In this document: piece by piece, positions 11,852-35,699 of the stretch
Layout: each line of letters starts with the position of its first letter
Numbering within the stretch: the stretch's first letter is position 1
NCBI GenBank assembly: GCA_944324315.1
Contig: CALUVW010000001.1
Coordinates: 62,001-126,000 of the forward strand
Length of the DNA: 64,000 bases
Source: Candidatus Gastranaerophilales bacterium
GTDB taxonomy: Bacteria; Cyanobacteriota; Vampirovibrionia; Gastranaerophilales; Gastranaerophilaceae
Reading direction: 5' to 3'
Made by a program: the position numbers and the translations under genes
The notes under the pieces: model-generated
What the model was told of the DNA's origin: nothing
The model's database searches: none
Seen by the model: the letters and a program-made list of their open reading frames with translations, nothing else

Positions 11852-12937
11852 CTAATCAAAAATTGCCCAGGAAGTATAGTTTCTGTCATCAATTTGTGGA
11901 TAATACTTGACATTTTTTCTAACTCTTACGACAAATGTTATTTCATCTAGATTAATTTCTTTTGGAAGAATTTTAAAAGCAAGTTTTTTATATGCTTTCA
12001 TTAATTGCTCATCGTACGAATCGGAATAAGTGTTTTCAAGCAATTTGACACTTTTTAAATTTCCGTTTTTCAAAATCGTAACTTCAAGCGCAATCGTTGT
12101 AGGTTTTATAGCTTTTGAGTATGGCGTTGCATAGTATATAATCCTTTCAACACTTCTTCTGTATGAATTTAAGGCTTCATACTTACTCTGTTTTAAAGGT
12201 TTTGCAGTAAATATAAACTGTAAATCTCTATCAGGTATAGATACATCAGGAATTGCAAAAGTATGGCTCTTTAATTTTTCTAAATAATATTTATCATACG
12301 CATCAGAGCCGCAAGATTGTAAGATTATAGCATCAACAACTTTTCCTTCTCTGTTTAGTCTTACATAAGTGTTTATTGTTTTTGTTTTAAAAGAGCTCCA
12401 TGGATTCAAACTCATATTAATTAAATCAGCTTCATCATCAATGGTTTTAATATATTTATTCAAAACTTCGTTATTTTTACCTGCTATATCAGAATTATCC
12501 TGAATAACGTTTTGAATTGGAATATCTGCTACATAAAAATGTTTTTTATTAATAATCATTTTATCAACATCACCTTTTGATATTGATTTTTTTTCATATA
12601 AATTGACAATAGCTCTGGATATTTCGTTACCAATATATTTTTTCGTTTTTATAGCATTATTAACTGTGTCATTTTCGGCAGATTTAATATTTGCAAAAGC
12701 AGCTATTATTGCATTATCAAACTCTTCTCCTCCTGATTGCAAAATTTTTAAATCTCCAACCTTTCCGTCATAAGTAATACTGTATGCAATACGTGCATTT
12801 GCAGGTTGTTGAAATTTATAAGACAAATTTGATTGCAAAACAAGATCAAAATCAGAATTTTGCGCACTAGTAACACGTGCATAACAGCATCCCGCAAATA
12901 ACAACATTATAAAAAATAAATAGAACCATTTTTTCAT
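11852..12937 (-). CDS. Secreted protein with three TonB C-terminal-like modules
   Basis: 361 residues with a signal peptide; LLFAGC could be a lipobox, so it may be a lipoprotein. Three segments show the TonB_C pattern 'strand-G-V-strand-LxSxGxxxxD-helix': about residues 47-87 (YDGKVGDLKILQSGGEEFD), 193-235 (NREGKVVDAIILQSCGSDAYD) and 280-340 (LKNGNLKSVKLLENTYSDSYD). It lacks the usual N-terminal membrane anchor plus proline-rich spacer of TonB. Function is unknown; binding to an outer-membrane or peptidoglycan partner is an inference. It is one of four TonB-like genes in the window. Confidence 0.7.
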   Translation of the reverse strand: MKKWFYLFFIMLLFAGCCYARVTSAQNSDFDLVLQSNLSYKFQQPANARIAYSITYDGKVGDLKILQSGGEEFDNAIIAAFANIKSAENDTVNNAIKTKKYIGNEISRAIVNLYEKKSISKGDVDKMIINKKHFYVADIPIQNVIQDNSDIAGKNNEVLNKYIKTIDDEADLINMSLNPWSSFKTKTINTYVRLNREGKVVDAIILQSCGSDAYDKYYLEKLKSHTFAIPDVSIPDRDLQFIFTAKPLKQSKYEALNSYRRSVERIIYYATPYSKAIKPTTIALEVTILKNGNLKSVKLLENTYSDSYDEQLMKAYKKLAFKILPKEINLDEITFVVRVRKNVKYYPQIDDRNYTSWAIFD

Positions 12938-29818: not shown

Positions 29819-30559
29819 ATGAAGAAGATTCTTATATTGTGTTTTTTAATATTTTTGTCGGCTTATAATGTTCATGCAGCTGAGTATATTAAAGTGAAGC
29901 CGGAATTTTTAACTGCTTCTCAAAGCAGCAGCTACGAAAAAGTTAATGAAACTCTCGCAATTATTTTCAACAAAATTAAACCTGAAATAAAAACGTCAAA
30001 ATATCCTAAGTATTATCACGATTTTACATTGATAAAAGATGACGGAACTCAAAACAAAGCTTATCATTATGTTAAATATTCAGGCGCTGAATTGATTTAT
30101 AACACTGACACAAACGAATTAAAATTTGTTTCATTCAGACGTCCGGAACTTATGAAATGCAGAATCATATATGATTATCCGTCAGGCAAATTTCATGCTG
30201 TACAAATCTTTGTCTCTGACAAAGAATCTTTTGTCTACAGTCCTGACGGGAAATATGTTGATTACGAACCTTATGTGAAAGAAGTCAAAGAAAAGGTAAT
30301 TAAAAACTGGAAAGTGCCGCCAAGAAAACAAATAGATATCCTTGCAAAGGGACAAAAAGATTTACTTGTTCAAATGGCGTTGACAATCGGCAGAGACGGA
30401 CATGTAAAAAAATGCAAAATATTAAAATCGTCTAAAATAAAAGCATTAGAGGATAATGCAGCTGCAGCAGTCAGATCTGCCGCACCTTTTAAACCGTTTC
30501 CTGATAACTTTTTCAACGAAGAACTTGTTATAATTCTAAATTTTAATTTCAGTTTATGA
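29819..30559 (+). CDS. Secreted TonB C-terminal-like protein
   Basis: 246 residues with a signal peptide (cleavage after VHA). Residues 20-150 are an unrecognised beta-rich region. Residues 155-246 match TonB_C: YVKEVKEKVIKNWKVPPRKQ, VQMALTIGRDGHVKKCKILK and NAAAAVRSAAPFKPFP. TonB normally carries inner-membrane energy to outer-membrane receptors, but here the domain is on a soluble exported protein with no ExbBD or receptor nearby. AT-rich sequence of 215 bp upstream shows no other gene. It overlaps the end of the facing pilin remnant. Confidence 0.75.
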   Translation: MKKILILCFLIFLSAYNVHAAEYIKVKPEFLTASQSSSYEKVNETLAIIFNKIKPEIKTSKYPKYYHDFTLIKDDGTQNKAYHYVKYSGAELIYNTDTNELKFVSFRRPELMKCRIIYDYPSGKFHAVQIFVSDKESFVYSPDGKYVDYEPYVKEVKEKVIKNWKVPPRKQIDILAKGQKDLLVQMALTIGRDGHVKKCKILKSSKIKALEDNAAAAVRSAAPFKPFPDNFFNEELVIILNFNFSL

Positions 30560-31083
30560 TATCTTTTTTTAAATCGTATGCACCCTCTTCTGTTACTATG
30601 CAATTATTATCAGGAACTATTTTAGGAATCTCCGTATTTGAGTTGCTTAATCTGAATCCGAAAACATCATGTCCCCATTTGTTTGGCCTTTTTTTCCCGT
30701 TTACATCAACATAGAAATTGGCAGGAGAGCCCATTATATTTGCCGGAATATTGCTGCCATATAGAAATAAAATTATTCCGTCGGGTAAAACATAAGATGT
30801 TGAATTATTTTCTAGTGATGATCTATACATCCCCGAACAGGCTCCCGTAAGCCCTAAAGATTGTTGATCCGTATATTCAGGGACACATCCGTCTGTAAAA
30901 ATATGACCTCTGCAAATTTTTATTGGTCTTAACCTTTTTTCAAAAGCTTCTTTTAACAGCGGGCATTCACTGCCTTGATGCCCTTCTCCAAAACTTCCGT
31001 AATGACAGTTCGTAGGAAATCCTAAATCATAAAATGCCAGATTATAAGCTTGTGATATCGCAGAATAGGCTTTTTTGAAACCG
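30549..31083 (-). pseudogene. 5'-truncated prepilin-like gene
   Basis: The frame from about 31083 downwards starts at KKAYSAISQAYNLAFYDLG, which in the intact prepilins follows the N-terminal helix, and continues through the Cys-rich head to PANFYVDVNGKKRPNKWGHDVFGF. The prepilin leader and FTLAEVLITLGI helix are gone; the upstream residues of the open frame (FLYFTNRFKVIIHI...) are antisense to the regulator fragment and not pilin. It therefore cannot be exported or processed. It meets the regulator fragment head to head. Confidence 0.8.
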
Positions 31084-31271
31084 GTTTGTATCATCCTTCT
31101 GATGAGAATTTGGAAAAAATAGCAAAAGTTCTTGATGTTGAGCCTTATCAACTTTATATGTATAATCACCTTAAACCTGTTAGTGAAATAAAGAAAAATC
31201 TGCATAAGATTATAGATAATGCAAGTGACGAAGAAATTAGACTAATATATCGTATATTATCAGCATTTTAG
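31077..31271 (+). pseudogene. 5'-truncated XRE-family regulator
   Basis: The forward frame reads ETGLYHPSDENLEKIAKVLDVEPYQL, the last helix of a Cro/CI-type HTH domain plus a C-terminal helical tail (NASDEEIRLIYRILSAF). The first three HTH helices are missing. Compare the intact gene at 37622 (ETGRGFMTLVTLEKLAKVLNVELYEI). The gene stops four bases past the end of the convergent TonB-like gene. Confidence 0.8.
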
Positions 31272-32189
31272 TGTATTGATATTTCATAATTACCGTTGTT
31301 TATTTTAAAATTCATACGGATTGTTTCGCCATTATATCCGGAAGGCGGAGGATTAAATCTCGGAACACTCATAAGCATATAATAAACACTGTCGTTTAAA
31401 GCTTTATTAGAGGATTCTTTTGAAAATTTTCTGTTTATTAATTTGCCTGTCTTGTCTATAGAAAATTGGATTGAACACTCACCGGAGCCTGTTATACTGC
31501 CTACCGCAAATTTAGAAAATAAAGCCGCACGCAAATTGTTTTTATATCTGAGCATTTCAGGGCTGTTCGGGTTATAAACCGGTTTTGAAGGTTGTTGAAC
31601 TATCGGCTGCGAGACTGTCTTTTCTTTAACTTGAACAGGCCGCACAGGTTCTGTTTTAACAGTTTTTGGAGACAAATCAATCTTTTTAGGCTCAGAAACC
31701 TTAGGTTTTTGACCACTGACGGACTTTGGCTGTTCTCTTACTATCCTAATTTTTTTTTTGCTGTGGAGTAGAAGTCTCCATCTGTCTAAAATATTCTATA
31801 GGGTTTGATACCGCCGGTTGAGGTTGTGGCTTTGTTTCTGTTGTTTTAGGTTGATATAAAGGCGTATCATCCCATATTTTATTAATATCCGGAATCTTTT
31901 TTGTCACAACCGGCTGCTTTTTCGTCTGTTTTGCAGTATCGGCTTTATCATTTACCGGTGTTTTCCCTATAGGAATCATCCAGATAATTATTGACAGAAT
32001 AAGACAAAACGCAAAAAATATTCTTGAAATAGTTTCTGACTTTTGTTCTATAGTCAAAGGTTGTCTAGCTTTAGGAGCACTAGCCTGTTTTGTACTCTTT
32101 TCTTCTATATAGTCAAAAGTGTTATTTCCGCAATCACAATATGCGACTTTATGTTTGTATTCAGCTTTACATTCTCTGCATCTGTACAT
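31268..32189 (-). pseudogene. Zinc-ribbon/TonB-like protein gene, frame broken at an A10 tract
   Basis: ATG 32189 opens a frame with a small zinc ribbon (CRECKAEYKHKVAYCDCG), a membrane helix (about 56-74, IFFAFCLILSIIIWMIPIG) and a proline-rich spacer, ending at TAG 31746 just after ten A (reverse strand 31759-31750). With nine A the frame continues as KKIRIVREQPKS into the open frame 31745-31268, which ends in a TonB_C-like domain (GSGECSIQFSIDKTGKLINRK). The restored product would be about 306 residues with a TonB layout. Last gene of the operon starting at 35699. Polymerase slippage on the A tract could still yield full-length protein. Confidence 0.75.
31750..31759 (-). repeat. Poly-A tract of ten (coding strand) in the TonB-like gene
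   Basis: Ten A on the reverse strand between CAGC and TTAGG. Removing one base joins the two halves of the gene; adding one does not (TAG follows). A runs of nine or more are known slippage sites for RNA polymerase. Confidence 0.85.
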
Positions 32190-32196
32190 AACAAAA

Positions 32197-32376
32197 TTAT
32201 CTTATCACAAATAATCCTAATTTATAAACAGCAAAAATAATTAATGCAATTAATAGCATTATAATGATTATTGCTGTCTGTCTTATAATATCAAAATCAT
32301 TTTTTGCCTTCATAAATTTAAAGACAAAAGGAAATTCTAAAATAAAGAAAAGCACAATACAAATTATCTTAAACAC
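32197..32376 (-). CDS. 59-residue membrane protein (GTG start)
   Basis: GTG 32376 directly follows the TAA of the preceding gene and has CGGAG eight bases upstream. The product MFKIICIVLFFILEF...ends LGLFVIR and has two hydrophobic segments (about 3-20 and 35-52) around a short polar loop (MKAKNDFDIIRQ). No family is recognised. It sits between the two TonB-like genes of the operon with gaps of 0 and 7 bp, so it is probably a real component of the system. Confidence 0.6.
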   Translation of the reverse strand: MFKIICIVLFFILEFPFVFKFMKAKNDFDIIRQTAIIIIMLLIALIIFAVYKLGLFVIR

Positions 32377-32517
32377 TTATTTACTCCGTTTAAATATAAT
32401 ATTTTCCAACTTTATAGTCTTATGCATTTTAGGATTTATTTTCGCTGTAACAAGAGTTGCAACTCCAAGAATTGCAATAGTAACAATACATATAATTATA
32501 ATTTTTGTAATATTCAT
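32377..32517 (-). CDS. 46-residue single-span membrane protein
   Basis: ATG 32517 overlaps the TGA of the upstream gene (TGATG), and AAAGGG is correctly placed inside that gene, so translation is coupled. One N-terminal helix (KIIIICIVTIAILGVATLV) is followed by a basic tail (NPKMHKTIKLENIIFKRSK). No family is recognised. Confidence 0.6.
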   Translation of the reverse strand: MNITKIIIICIVTIAILGVATLVTAKINPKMHKTIKLENIIFKRSK

Positions 32518-33371
32518 CAATATACTACCCTTTCATAATCAGAAAAATCATTAGGAGTTGAATATCTTTCCTGCGTACCAATTAAGAAAATCCCTGTTAC
32601 AACTGTTGATGTTCTTTGTGTTCCTTTCGGAAAATTAAGAATAGGTTTTCTTTGTAAATTTGAAATAGCAGGTTTCACTCTGTCTCTTGCAACATTCATA
32701 AAATTTGGGTTAGAACATTCAACTTTGATATTTGAAATGTTTCCGAATTTATCAACAACAAATGTGAACAAAAATATTGTTCCGAGAGGAGCATAATCTA
32801 TTTGAGAATCCCGCATAATCTGATTTTGAAGGTTACTCCTCCACTTATTCCAGGCAATTATTTCTTCCTGTTCTGTCATATAAGGATTTTTATTTTCCTG
32901 TTTTGGCTGAGTTTTCTGCACTTGCACAGGCTTCTGCGGTTTCGGCTCGGGTTTAACCTCAGGTTTCGGTTCCTCTGCCTGTTCTGTCTGCTCAATTATT
33001 CTTTGAAGCAACTCAAGCTGGGAACTATCCTGAGACGTTGTTTCAGGCTTAACTTTAACCTCTTTTTTTTCAGGTTTAACTATTTCCTGTTGTATATATT
33101 TTATTTGTTCACGAATAGGAGCTTCTTCTTTTATTTTAATTTCTTTTGTTTGTTCCGGAATAGAGGGCTCAACAATATTTTGAGTTTTTTGTTCGATTTT
33201 CTGCGGTGAACTTACAGGAATATTTTTAGTCATTAATGTATCGCTTATACGCGTAAGTTGAAAGTCTGCATCCTCAATAATCATCGGTTGATGCATCTCG
33301 GGATGAAGTTTAATAGTACATATAGTAACTATTATAAATAAAATTATTGTTACAACTTTCAAAAAATCCAT
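32517..33371 (-). CDS. TonB-like energy-transducer protein
   Basis: 284 residues with TonB architecture: an N-terminal inner-membrane helix (4-20), a long Pro/Glu/Lys spacer (about 55-165; PEVKPEPKPQKPVQVQ) to cross the periplasm, and a C-terminal domain (175-284; WNKWRSNLQNQIMRDSQID, FLFTFVVDKFGNISNIKVE). TonB transmits proton-motive force through ExbB/ExbD to outer-membrane transporters; none of those is encoded here, and the neighbours are a VWA and an FHA-like protein. It may be a structural envelope-spanning protein rather than a true TonB. Confidence 0.75.
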   Translation of the reverse strand: MDFLKVVTIILFIIVTICTIKLHPEMHQPMIIEDADFQLTRISDTLMTKNIPVSSPQKIEQKTQNIVEPSIPEQTKEIKIKEEAPIREQIKYIQQEIVKPEKKEVKVKPETTSQDSSQLELLQRIIEQTEQAEEPKPEVKPEPKPQKPVQVQKTQPKQENKNPYMTEQEEIIAWNKWRSNLQNQIMRDSQIDYAPLGTIFLFTFVVDKFGNISNIKVECSNPNFMNVARDRVKPAISNLQRKPILNFPKGTQRTSTVVTGIFLIGTQERYSTPNDFSDYERVVY

Positions 33372-33373
33372 AA

Positions 33374-34993
33374 CTAATCTTTATCTACTTTTGCCAGCAA
33401 TTCGTCACAAGCGTATATATCGAACTTTGTCTGGCTGAGCATCATTGTTTCAGCTATCAAAAGAGCTGTAGGAACAAGTGCAGCTACCAAACTTAAAAAT
33501 ATACCCTGCATATCTCCGCCGATTTCTGTCATAAAATAAGATACGTTCATTGCAAATTCAATAAATATAATTGCACAGGCAATAGCAAGCGAACGATTTT
33601 TTTCAGAATTTAATCTTCTGACACCTTCCAGCCCGTATATCGTAACTCCATGGTGCTGGTAGTCAGAAAATCCGTCCTGTTTTATTACCTGTGAGCCCTG
33701 AACTTTTTTCGTACAGAAAAATGCATTTACAAAAGAGAAAAACGCAAAAATAATCAAAAACGTCGCAAGTGTTAAAAACACAGGGCTTATTCTCAAACCT
33801 GAAATTCTTACCCATCCTGCCGCTTCGGGAAAACACATAGCAAGAGTATTTGAAACACCGTATGCAAGAAATGGCGCTGTTAATATACCAACAACTGTTT
33901 CACCCACAGATTTAAGCTGAAGGTTAAACATTTTATCTTTTATATATTGCAGTTTTGAATTACTTAAGCTGTTAATGTATCTTTCAATCCACTGTCTGTA
34001 AGACTTAATGACACTTTCAAAATCTTCTCTATATTCGTATTTGTCAAGAGTCATTGTCCATTCTACACCGTTGCATTTGAAATATCCGCAGCTTATTGCA
34101 AGAACAGCCATTATACCAGAGAAAAAGAATGATATAAATATCGCAAAAGTCATAAAATCATTCAAATTCATATAATAAACAAGATTTACAACATAAACTC
34201 CAAGTACAAATATCAATGAAAAAATAAGCATAAAACTCTGACCGAGCTTTGCAGACTTTGACATTTCTTTTTGAATATTACTTTGAAGATACAGGTAAAT
34301 ACCCTGTTTCAATAACAGACAAATTCCATAAATCAAAATGGTATATACACCCCAGACTTTAATATTTGTCGGCAGATGAAGAAAATTTGCAGACTCTTTT
34401 ATTTCAAGCCCCATGAGGTAATTTGATACACCGAATGCACAAACCATTGCACTTAAAAACATTGCAATATGGAGGAAAATACTTGTTTTTGAATTGGTTG
34501 AAAGTTTTTGTTTCAAATCATTTATATGGAATGCAACCTGTTTAATTATAGCAACACGTGCATTTTCAAGATCTTCCTTCTGTTTTTCAAGCTTAACTTT
34601 AGTAACCGCATTAACATCTTTCCCGTAAAGCCCTTTTATATCATCTTCTGTCAAATCTTCCTTACCGATAGATGTAATTGTTTTTGAATGAACTTGCTGC
34701 GCAGCTTCTTCAATCAGCCTTACGCTTACAAACTCATCTGTACCGCCAAACATAAGCTTGCATACATTTCTTACTTCGACTCTTTTTATAGGCTGCCCTT
34801 TAAAAAGGACTTTATCACTTTGAAAAGTATTGATTATTAAACATTTATTTTCAACAGCATTATACTGAAGCGTCAATAATATGTCGAAATTCAGTTTTAA
34901 AATAACGTCGCAATTAGCATTTGTGCCGATATTTATTACATCTTTATTTTTAAATACTTTTTCACCCTGTGATGTTGATATAACTATTGTCAT
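33374..34993 (-). CDS. FHA-like domain protein with multiple membrane helices
   Basis: 539 residues. The first 90 residues look like a degenerate FHA beta sandwich (KDVINIGTNANCDVIL; LFKGQPIKRVEVRNVCKLMFGG), although the usual phosphothreonine-binding Ser/His pair is not obvious. A charged helical linker (110-165) leads to about eight membrane segments in two groups (about 170-300 and 380-530) split by a cytosolic helical loop (DKYEYREDFESVIKSYRQW). Overall family not recognised. The product starts 31 bp behind the VWA gene and 2 bp before the TonB-like gene, so the three are co-expressed. Confidence 0.65.
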   Translation of the reverse strand: MTIVISTSQGEKVFKNKDVINIGTNANCDVILKLNFDILLTLQYNAVENKCLIINTFQSDKVLFKGQPIKRVEVRNVCKLMFGGTDEFVSVRLIEEAAQQVHSKTITSIGKEDLTEDDIKGLYGKDVNAVTKVKLEKQKEDLENARVAIIKQVAFHINDLKQKLSTNSKTSIFLHIAMFLSAMVCAFGVSNYLMGLEIKESANFLHLPTNIKVWGVYTILIYGICLLLKQGIYLYLQSNIQKEMSKSAKLGQSFMLIFSLIFVLGVYVVNLVYYMNLNDFMTFAIFISFFFSGIMAVLAISCGYFKCNGVEWTMTLDKYEYREDFESVIKSYRQWIERYINSLSNSKLQYIKDKMFNLQLKSVGETVVGILTAPFLAYGVSNTLAMCFPEAAGWVRISGLRISPVFLTLATFLIIFAFFSFVNAFFCTKKVQGSQVIKQDGFSDYQHHGVTIYGLEGVRRLNSEKNRSLAIACAIIFIEFAMNVSYFMTEIGGDMQGIFLSLVAALVPTALLIAETMMLSQTKFDIYACDELLAKVDKD

Positions 34994-35024
34994 TAATTAC
35001 CTCTTAAATTCTTAAACTTTTTAA

Positions 35025-35699
35025 TTATCTTCCTAATGCATGAAGAAATCTTCTTATAGACTTGTCAATATTTTGTTCGGGAGAGACTATAAGGTGTTTT
35101 TCTCCAAGAACAGGAGTTAATTTTTCTTTTACAAGATCAAGTTTTGCCGGATGCGCATCCAAAAACATCATAGAAATATCAGGTGCATATTGTTTTACAT
35201 TTTTCACATTTTGCGGCAAAGTATTCCAGTTTATCTGTTTTTCTATTGCACCCTCATTTTCAAGATCTCCTATTACAACAACAGCCGGAATGTATCCGTT
35301 CTTTTTCATAGTCAAAGCATGTGAAAAAGCTTTTTTCAAACCAACACCGTAAGCCGTTCCGTAATCTTTTTCGTCATATTTTGTAAAGGCATCCATTGAT
35401 TTTGTAATTGTGCTTCCGTTCATCGGTCCGCCTTCATATATCAAATAGGCATCCTCAGAAACTCTTAGAATTTTCACCTGATCTTCTGGGTCTAACAGAT
35501 TACATATTTGACGCAATACCTTTTTCTGTTCAGGGAGCCGTTTTTGGTTTGACGCAGATGAATCAATTACAAAAATAACAGCTGCAGGATGAAAATCATC
35601 AACCTTTATCTGTTTTAATCCTGCCCAAATAAATTTTAGTGCAACCGATAATACAAGTATTAATAATCCTAATGTAACTAATCTTTTATTCAACTTCAT
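35025..35699 (-). CDS. Membrane-anchored von Willebrand factor A-domain protein
   Basis: 224 residues. An N-terminal membrane helix (about 8-27) is followed by a VWA domain: VIFVIDSSAS (42-50) is the MIDAS DxSxS metal site, a TITKSMDAFTKY segment may supply the MIDAS Thr, and VVVIGDLENEGA resembles the third MIDAS loop. VWA domains bind protein partners through a metal ion. First gene of the six-gene operon; its upstream region contains no clear promoter by eye. Confidence 0.82.
   Translation of the reverse strand: MKLNKRLVTLGLLILVLSVALKFIWAGLKQIKVDDFHPAAVIFVIDSSASNQKRLPEQKKVLRQICNLLDPEDQVKILRVSEDAYLIYEGGPMNGSTITKSMDAFTKYDEKDYGTAYGVGLKKAFSHALTMKKNGYIPAVVVIGDLENEGAIEKQINWNTLPQNVKNVKQYAPDISMMFLDAHPAKLDLVKEKLTPVLGEKHLIVSPEQNIDKSIRRFLHALGR

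Follow-up and report, generated by a model that had tools for sequence, protein, structure and literature searches.

A conserved VWA–FHA–TonB-arm operon in one Gastranaerophilales family and a candidate envelope-spanning complex

RESULTS

Organisation of the operon

The window analysed here, a stretch of 64,000 nucleotides from a Candidatus Gastranaerophilales bacterium, carries on its minus strand an operon of envelope genes separated by gaps of 31, 2, -1, 0 and 7 bp, exactly as the original prediction had it. From the first gene to the last, its features are the following:

35025..35699 (-): VWA, 224 aa; N-terminal TM anchor and a VWA domain with complete MIDAS
33374..34993 (-): FHA-like membrane protein, 539 aa; FHA fold in the cytosol (residues 1-92), then a long helix and about eight membrane helices
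32517..33371 (-): TB1, 284 aa; anchored by a TM segment, with a Pro-rich spacer and a C-terminal domain like those of TonB and TolA
32377..32517 (-): S46, microprotein with one TM segment, similar to the anchor of TB1 and carrying a P-x-MHK motif
32197..32376 (-): S59, 59 aa; two-TM, GTG start
31746..32189 (-): ZR, 147 aa; CxxC...CxC zinc ribbon, TM, Pro-rich segment; the stop precedes the TonB domain
31750..31759 (-): A10 run shortly ahead of the stop codon of ZR; likeliest frame-change point in the window's genome
31268..31795 (-): C-terminal TonB domain of the sixth gene; its open frame is +1 with respect to ZR (TonB_2, PF13103, 1e-7)

Six intact genes had been predicted. Five of them were found at matching coordinates, but the sixth lies in two frames, with the ZR stop at 31746 and the TonB domain in +1. 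Both parts of the predicted zinc-ribbon/TonB protein are present, although not in the single ORF that had been claimed.

Conservation and distribution

About 146 loci were compared, some of which are one contig present in two collections. In these partly redundant loci the VWA and FHA genes are adjacent 141 times, and the FHA and TB1 genes 146 times, with median gaps of 19 and 2 bp, respectively, and the recurrence of the core order in about 140 of them is far beyond chance. The first two genes are also co-inherited: all of the 153 genomes with the VWA, in a set of 241 order-level genomes, also have the FHA protein, and the VWA never occurs without it. Nine genomes with the FHA protein only are weak matches, and in the three of these that were checked the match is a stand-alone FHA-like protein of 99 aa. 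In genus g5, such a stand-alone protein (L260:7539-7838, L261:7387-7686, L263:342-641) is conserved and adjoins an EmrAB/TolC-type cassette, in genomes without the VWA.

In the phylum sample 128 of the 386 genomes gave a match and, among the matches listed, all belong to one family. An incomplete genome of another family in the order sample (G020, 66% complete) has the set too, which may be a binning error. The best 80 matches in the genome collections are to Gastranaerophilales or to unnamed or uncultured bins, with a few titled as other genera, which we take to be mislabelled. Some variation was seen: the VWA is missing from six loci, the second arm from some and TB1 from one group (G104), and among the paralogous operons there are some with no VWA or no second arm. 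The constant core is VWA-FHA-TonB arm(s), in an order conserved across one Gastranaerophilales family. Gene-order conservation, to which the prediction had looked for support, is kept in the core, but S46 and S59 were not detected in all genera.

The VWA and FHA-like proteins

The predicted VWA domain was recognised by PF13519 (4e-7, over the Pfam cut-off), and its MIDAS motif is complete, the residues D46-S48-S50, T115 and D145 being invariant in an alignment of 17 VWA sequences. A search of the VWA sequence against the PDB gave no convincing match.

The 539-aa FHA-like protein had no Pfam or NCBIfam match in profile searches and its sequence no convincing match in the PDB, but its AlphaFold model (pLDDT 83) bears out the assignment, since the N-terminal sandwich matches the FHA domains of 6ccd and 3oun in the PDB (Foldseek, probability 1.00, TMt 0.73-0.77). 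The eight-helix membrane part gave no PDB match with Foldseek (TM-scores of at most 0.22 in the long alignments listed). Its core is strongly conserved, TAPFLAYGVSNTLAMCFPEAAGW, and E478, N482 and E514 are invariant in an alignment of 49 sequences. A search for carriage of the FHA protein by plasmids and phages gave no match, and an anti-phage defence system was rejected as an identity for the operon, the six proteins having no match among the PADLOC models.

What could the FHA domain do? The 49-sequence consensus does not retain the canonical GR, S and N, so that phosphothreonine binding appears unlikely for this domain, and the suggestion that the FHA module governs signalling is weakened by the same loss. 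In a signalling or sensing device the VWA would sense a periplasmic ligand, the FHA domain would recruit a cytosolic partner and the arms would only measure the distance to the wall. VWA and FHA are indeed common interaction modules, but with the canonical phosphothreonine site gone from the consensus, and with neither kinase nor phosphatase coded in the operon, we regard such a device as very improbable.

TonB-type arms and small proteins

TB1 has no Pfam match, but its C-terminal domain was modelled confidently and the top PDB matches of the model are TonB and TolA C-terminal domains, in agreement with the predicted TonB layout. The fold of TB1 is taken from this structure model, the profile comparison of its C-terminus with that of the sixth gene giving 20%. 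The TB1 profile also matches S46 (1.3e-4), which is kept in all 18 genomes examined, including a sister genus, and is under purifying selection (pN 0.27 vs pS 0.66). Homologues of S59 occupy the equivalent position in most congeneric loci. With genes that are ordered, conserved and co-inherited, and with an FHA domain confirmed by its fold, the proposal of an envelope gene set with two TonB-type arms is supported.

As in the TonB-ExbB-ExbD system, two proteins of the operon combine a TM segment, a Pro-rich spacer and a TonB-type C-terminus. Unlike that system, the operon has no ExbB/ExbD, and no Plug-domain match indicating a TonB-dependent receptor was found in its own genome (one of nine congeneric genomes gave a match). 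The absence of ExbB/ExbD, as predicted, is correct for the operon but not for the genome, which has one ExbB-ExbD-ExbD-TonB cluster.

The TolA-like C-terminal fold of TB1, with TolA domains among its top matches, and the lack of a Plug domain in the genome would also suit an envelope-integrity or outer-membrane-tethering system of the Tol-Pal type, whose TolA-like arms would give the envelope stability or bring about its constriction at division. We consider this unlikely: TolQR, TolB and Pal are absent from the operon, the set is missing from part of the order, which a housekeeping system would not be, and the VWA and FHA proteins, which are additional to Tol-Pal, would be left unexplained.

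A VirB10/TrbI-like partner

The original gene inventory was incomplete. A TrbI/VirB10-like protein is coded directly upstream of the VWA or FHA gene in about half of the loci and is present in 33 of the 33 congeneric genomes; this recurrent partner had been missed because in the window's genome its gene is relocated away from the operon, on another contig (C8), where it adjoins plsY. Of 14 members of the upstream family, 9 show similarity to the first half of PF03743 (best 1.1e-5), but they stay below the curated cut-off (25.1 bits vs 35 for member 1), and the protein differs from VirB10/TrbI in having an apparent signal peptide in place of an N-terminal TM anchor. A paralogue flanks the sole ExbB-ExbD-ExbD-TonB cluster of the window's genome; in L239 (G000:C3, 6321-10741) this single cluster has two proteins of the VirB10/TrbI-like family upstream.

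A minimal secretion or surface-assembly apparatus would assign the VirB10-like protein to a periplasmic channel, the FHA protein to a scaffold of the EssC/YscD kind and the TonB arms to gating struts. The TrbI similarity and the tightness of the operon speak for it, but it seems to us rather unlikely, as the operon has no ATPase, secretin or translocon gene, the TrbI score misses the cut-off and the VirB10-like protein lacks the N-terminal anchor. The loci read contained no other recognisable genes of type IV secretion.

The split sixth gene

The sixth gene is in two frames in 5 of the 33 congeneric genomes, namely the window's genome and four others (G164, G042, G023, G001); in most relatives ZR and the TonB domain share one frame. 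An apparent break in L199 was rejected as a further split, being caused by a masked N run. In the four other genomes the frames meet at TAT-GCC-AGG-C, where the window's genome has A10 instead. This stretch occurs in seven species, in three of which the gene is in one frame, and both its Ala codon GCC (11% usage) and its Arg codon AGG (10%) are invariant in all seven. By comparison, the codon is kept in just 5 of the 65 conserved degenerate columns of the TonB domain, all of them two-fold. In the three unsplit species a +1 shift at the stretch would hit a stop after two codons. Known +1 frameshift sites with a slow AGG codon have a pattern similar to GCC-AGG-C, and the codon-conserved site of the four species suggests programmed +1 frameshifting.

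Could the split mean that the gene has recently decayed, or that the A-rich spacer was misassembled, with no recoding at all? Species with the split are dispersed over the FHA tree, and the frame change in the window falls at A10, where indels are typical, so that decay or a false indel from assembly is possible in the window's sixth gene; the ORFs adjoining the operon also look truncated. Against this, the TonB domain is intact in the split species, with dN of 0.04-0.12 at near-saturated synonymous divergence and, in the pair G164-G042, both of which are split, a dN/dS of 0.04, as expected of purifying selection, and four of the splits fall at one site whose minor codons are invariant in seven species. 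For the split, we give decay or assembly error a little under an even chance.

Several other candidates were rejected. A dispersed repeat is not the source of the conserved TATGCCAGGC site, which occurs once per genome, in the sixth gene only. No downstream RNA stem that might stimulate frameshifting beats shuffled sequences in three split species, and no Rfam elements were found. On a single origin of the split the trees speak less clearly: the split species do not cluster in the FHA tree, and the sixth-gene trees are poorly supported.

Two ORFs adjoin the end of the operon. One, at 30549-31205 (-), is pilin-like and lacks its N-terminal FTLAEVLI signal; the other, at 31086-31271 (+), is XRE-like and truncated at the N-terminus.

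Comparison with the Agl-Glt machinery

No known operon matched the set. The closest described system is Agl-Glt of Myxococcus xanthus (PMC3169522, PMC12288465, PMC13104615). In that machinery FHA and TonB-type domains are found together in the inner-membrane transducer GltG (PF00498 + PF03544), alongside the membrane protein GltJ and the VWA adhesin CglB, and the claim that the operon has no described counterpart was for this reason too strong. Both systems have an inner-membrane FHA-domain protein, recognised in the operon by its fold and not by a PF00498 match. GltJ has a zinc-ribbon layout. The AglRQS motor consists of one ExbB-like and two ExbD-like subunits, the composition also found in the single ExbB-ExbD-ExbD cluster of the window's genome.

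The differences are equally clear. The FHA domain of the operon is carried by a polytopic protein with no TonB domain and the TonB arms are separate genes; the VWA is anchored in the inner membrane, whereas CglB is an outer-membrane lipoprotein; and the operon has no motor or other Glt genes. The AgmX/PglI C-terminal domain NF033768 reached 13.3 bits against a curated cut-off of 40. A search for an AglRQS-type motor led to the ExbB-ExbD-ExbD cluster, which adjoins its own TonB, and one for MglA gave PF00025 matches in open frames of 438-837 aa in the own genome, none of them of about 195 aa. Since the operon has neither FHA and TonB domains on one protein, as in GltG, nor NF033768 at its cut-off, we do not file it under Glt: judged by its sequence, it resembles Glt in parts yet is not a Glt system.

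DISCUSSION

We propose that the operon codes for a complex that is based in the inner membrane, spans the envelope and is peculiar to one Gastranaerophilales family, a Glt-like reduced transducer, and we give this reading a probability of about one half. The hub in the inner membrane would be the polytopic FHA protein; its degenerate FHA domain would act as a scaffold, and the conserved core of its membrane part (E478, N482, E514) is perhaps what is mechanically active. The two TonB/TolA-type arms, TB1 and the zinc-ribbon-TonB protein, would cross the periplasm toward the outer membrane or the peptidoglycan, and the inner-membrane-anchored VWA, with its MIDAS in the periplasm, would make a metal-dependent contact. 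The VirB10/TrbI-like protein may be the envelope-side partner, and S46 would be an anchor without an arm. Such a complex could transmit force or conformational change, with power coming from the FHA protein or, in trans, from the single ExbB-ExbD-ExbD motor of the genome, and its output may lie at the surface, for example in adhesion, export or the anchoring of the envelope.

The diderm envelope reported for the lineage (PMC4040986) counts in favour of an envelope-spanning complex, as do the conserved gene order, the co-inheritance, the FHA, TonB/TolA and VWA folds, the recurrent TrbI-like neighbour and the joint presence of FHA, TonB and VWA proteins in Glt. Counting against it are the lack of a motor gene in the operon and of any outer-membrane partner beyond the weak TrbI match, an FHA membrane core with no known homologue, and the paralogous operons that lack the VWA or the second arm.

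A bolder version of this proposal, which we hold to be doubtful, is an undescribed trans-envelope machine in which the unclassified membrane domain would replace ExbB/ExbD as motor or hub, and in which programmed +1 frameshifting (GCC-AGG-C) or poly-A slippage would set how much of one TonB arm is made, yielding both arm-bearing and armless forms of one anchor. As an envelope system, the proposed complex would be lineage-defining for common, mostly uncultured gut bacteria. It would have at its centre a conserved membrane domain that has neither a Pfam family nor a fold match in the PDB, and TonB-type force transmission would be extended to a receptor-less system. If the frame split is programmed, recoding would here control the number of envelope-spanning arms.

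At 29819-30559 (+) and 11852-12937 (-) the window codes for two proteins of secreted or lipoprotein type that have TonB_C domains and no TonB anchor layout, and small TM proteins with the P-x-MHK motif of TB1 and S46 lie upstream of a TrbI-like gene in two other loci (L038:4905-5195 and L045:7340-7519).
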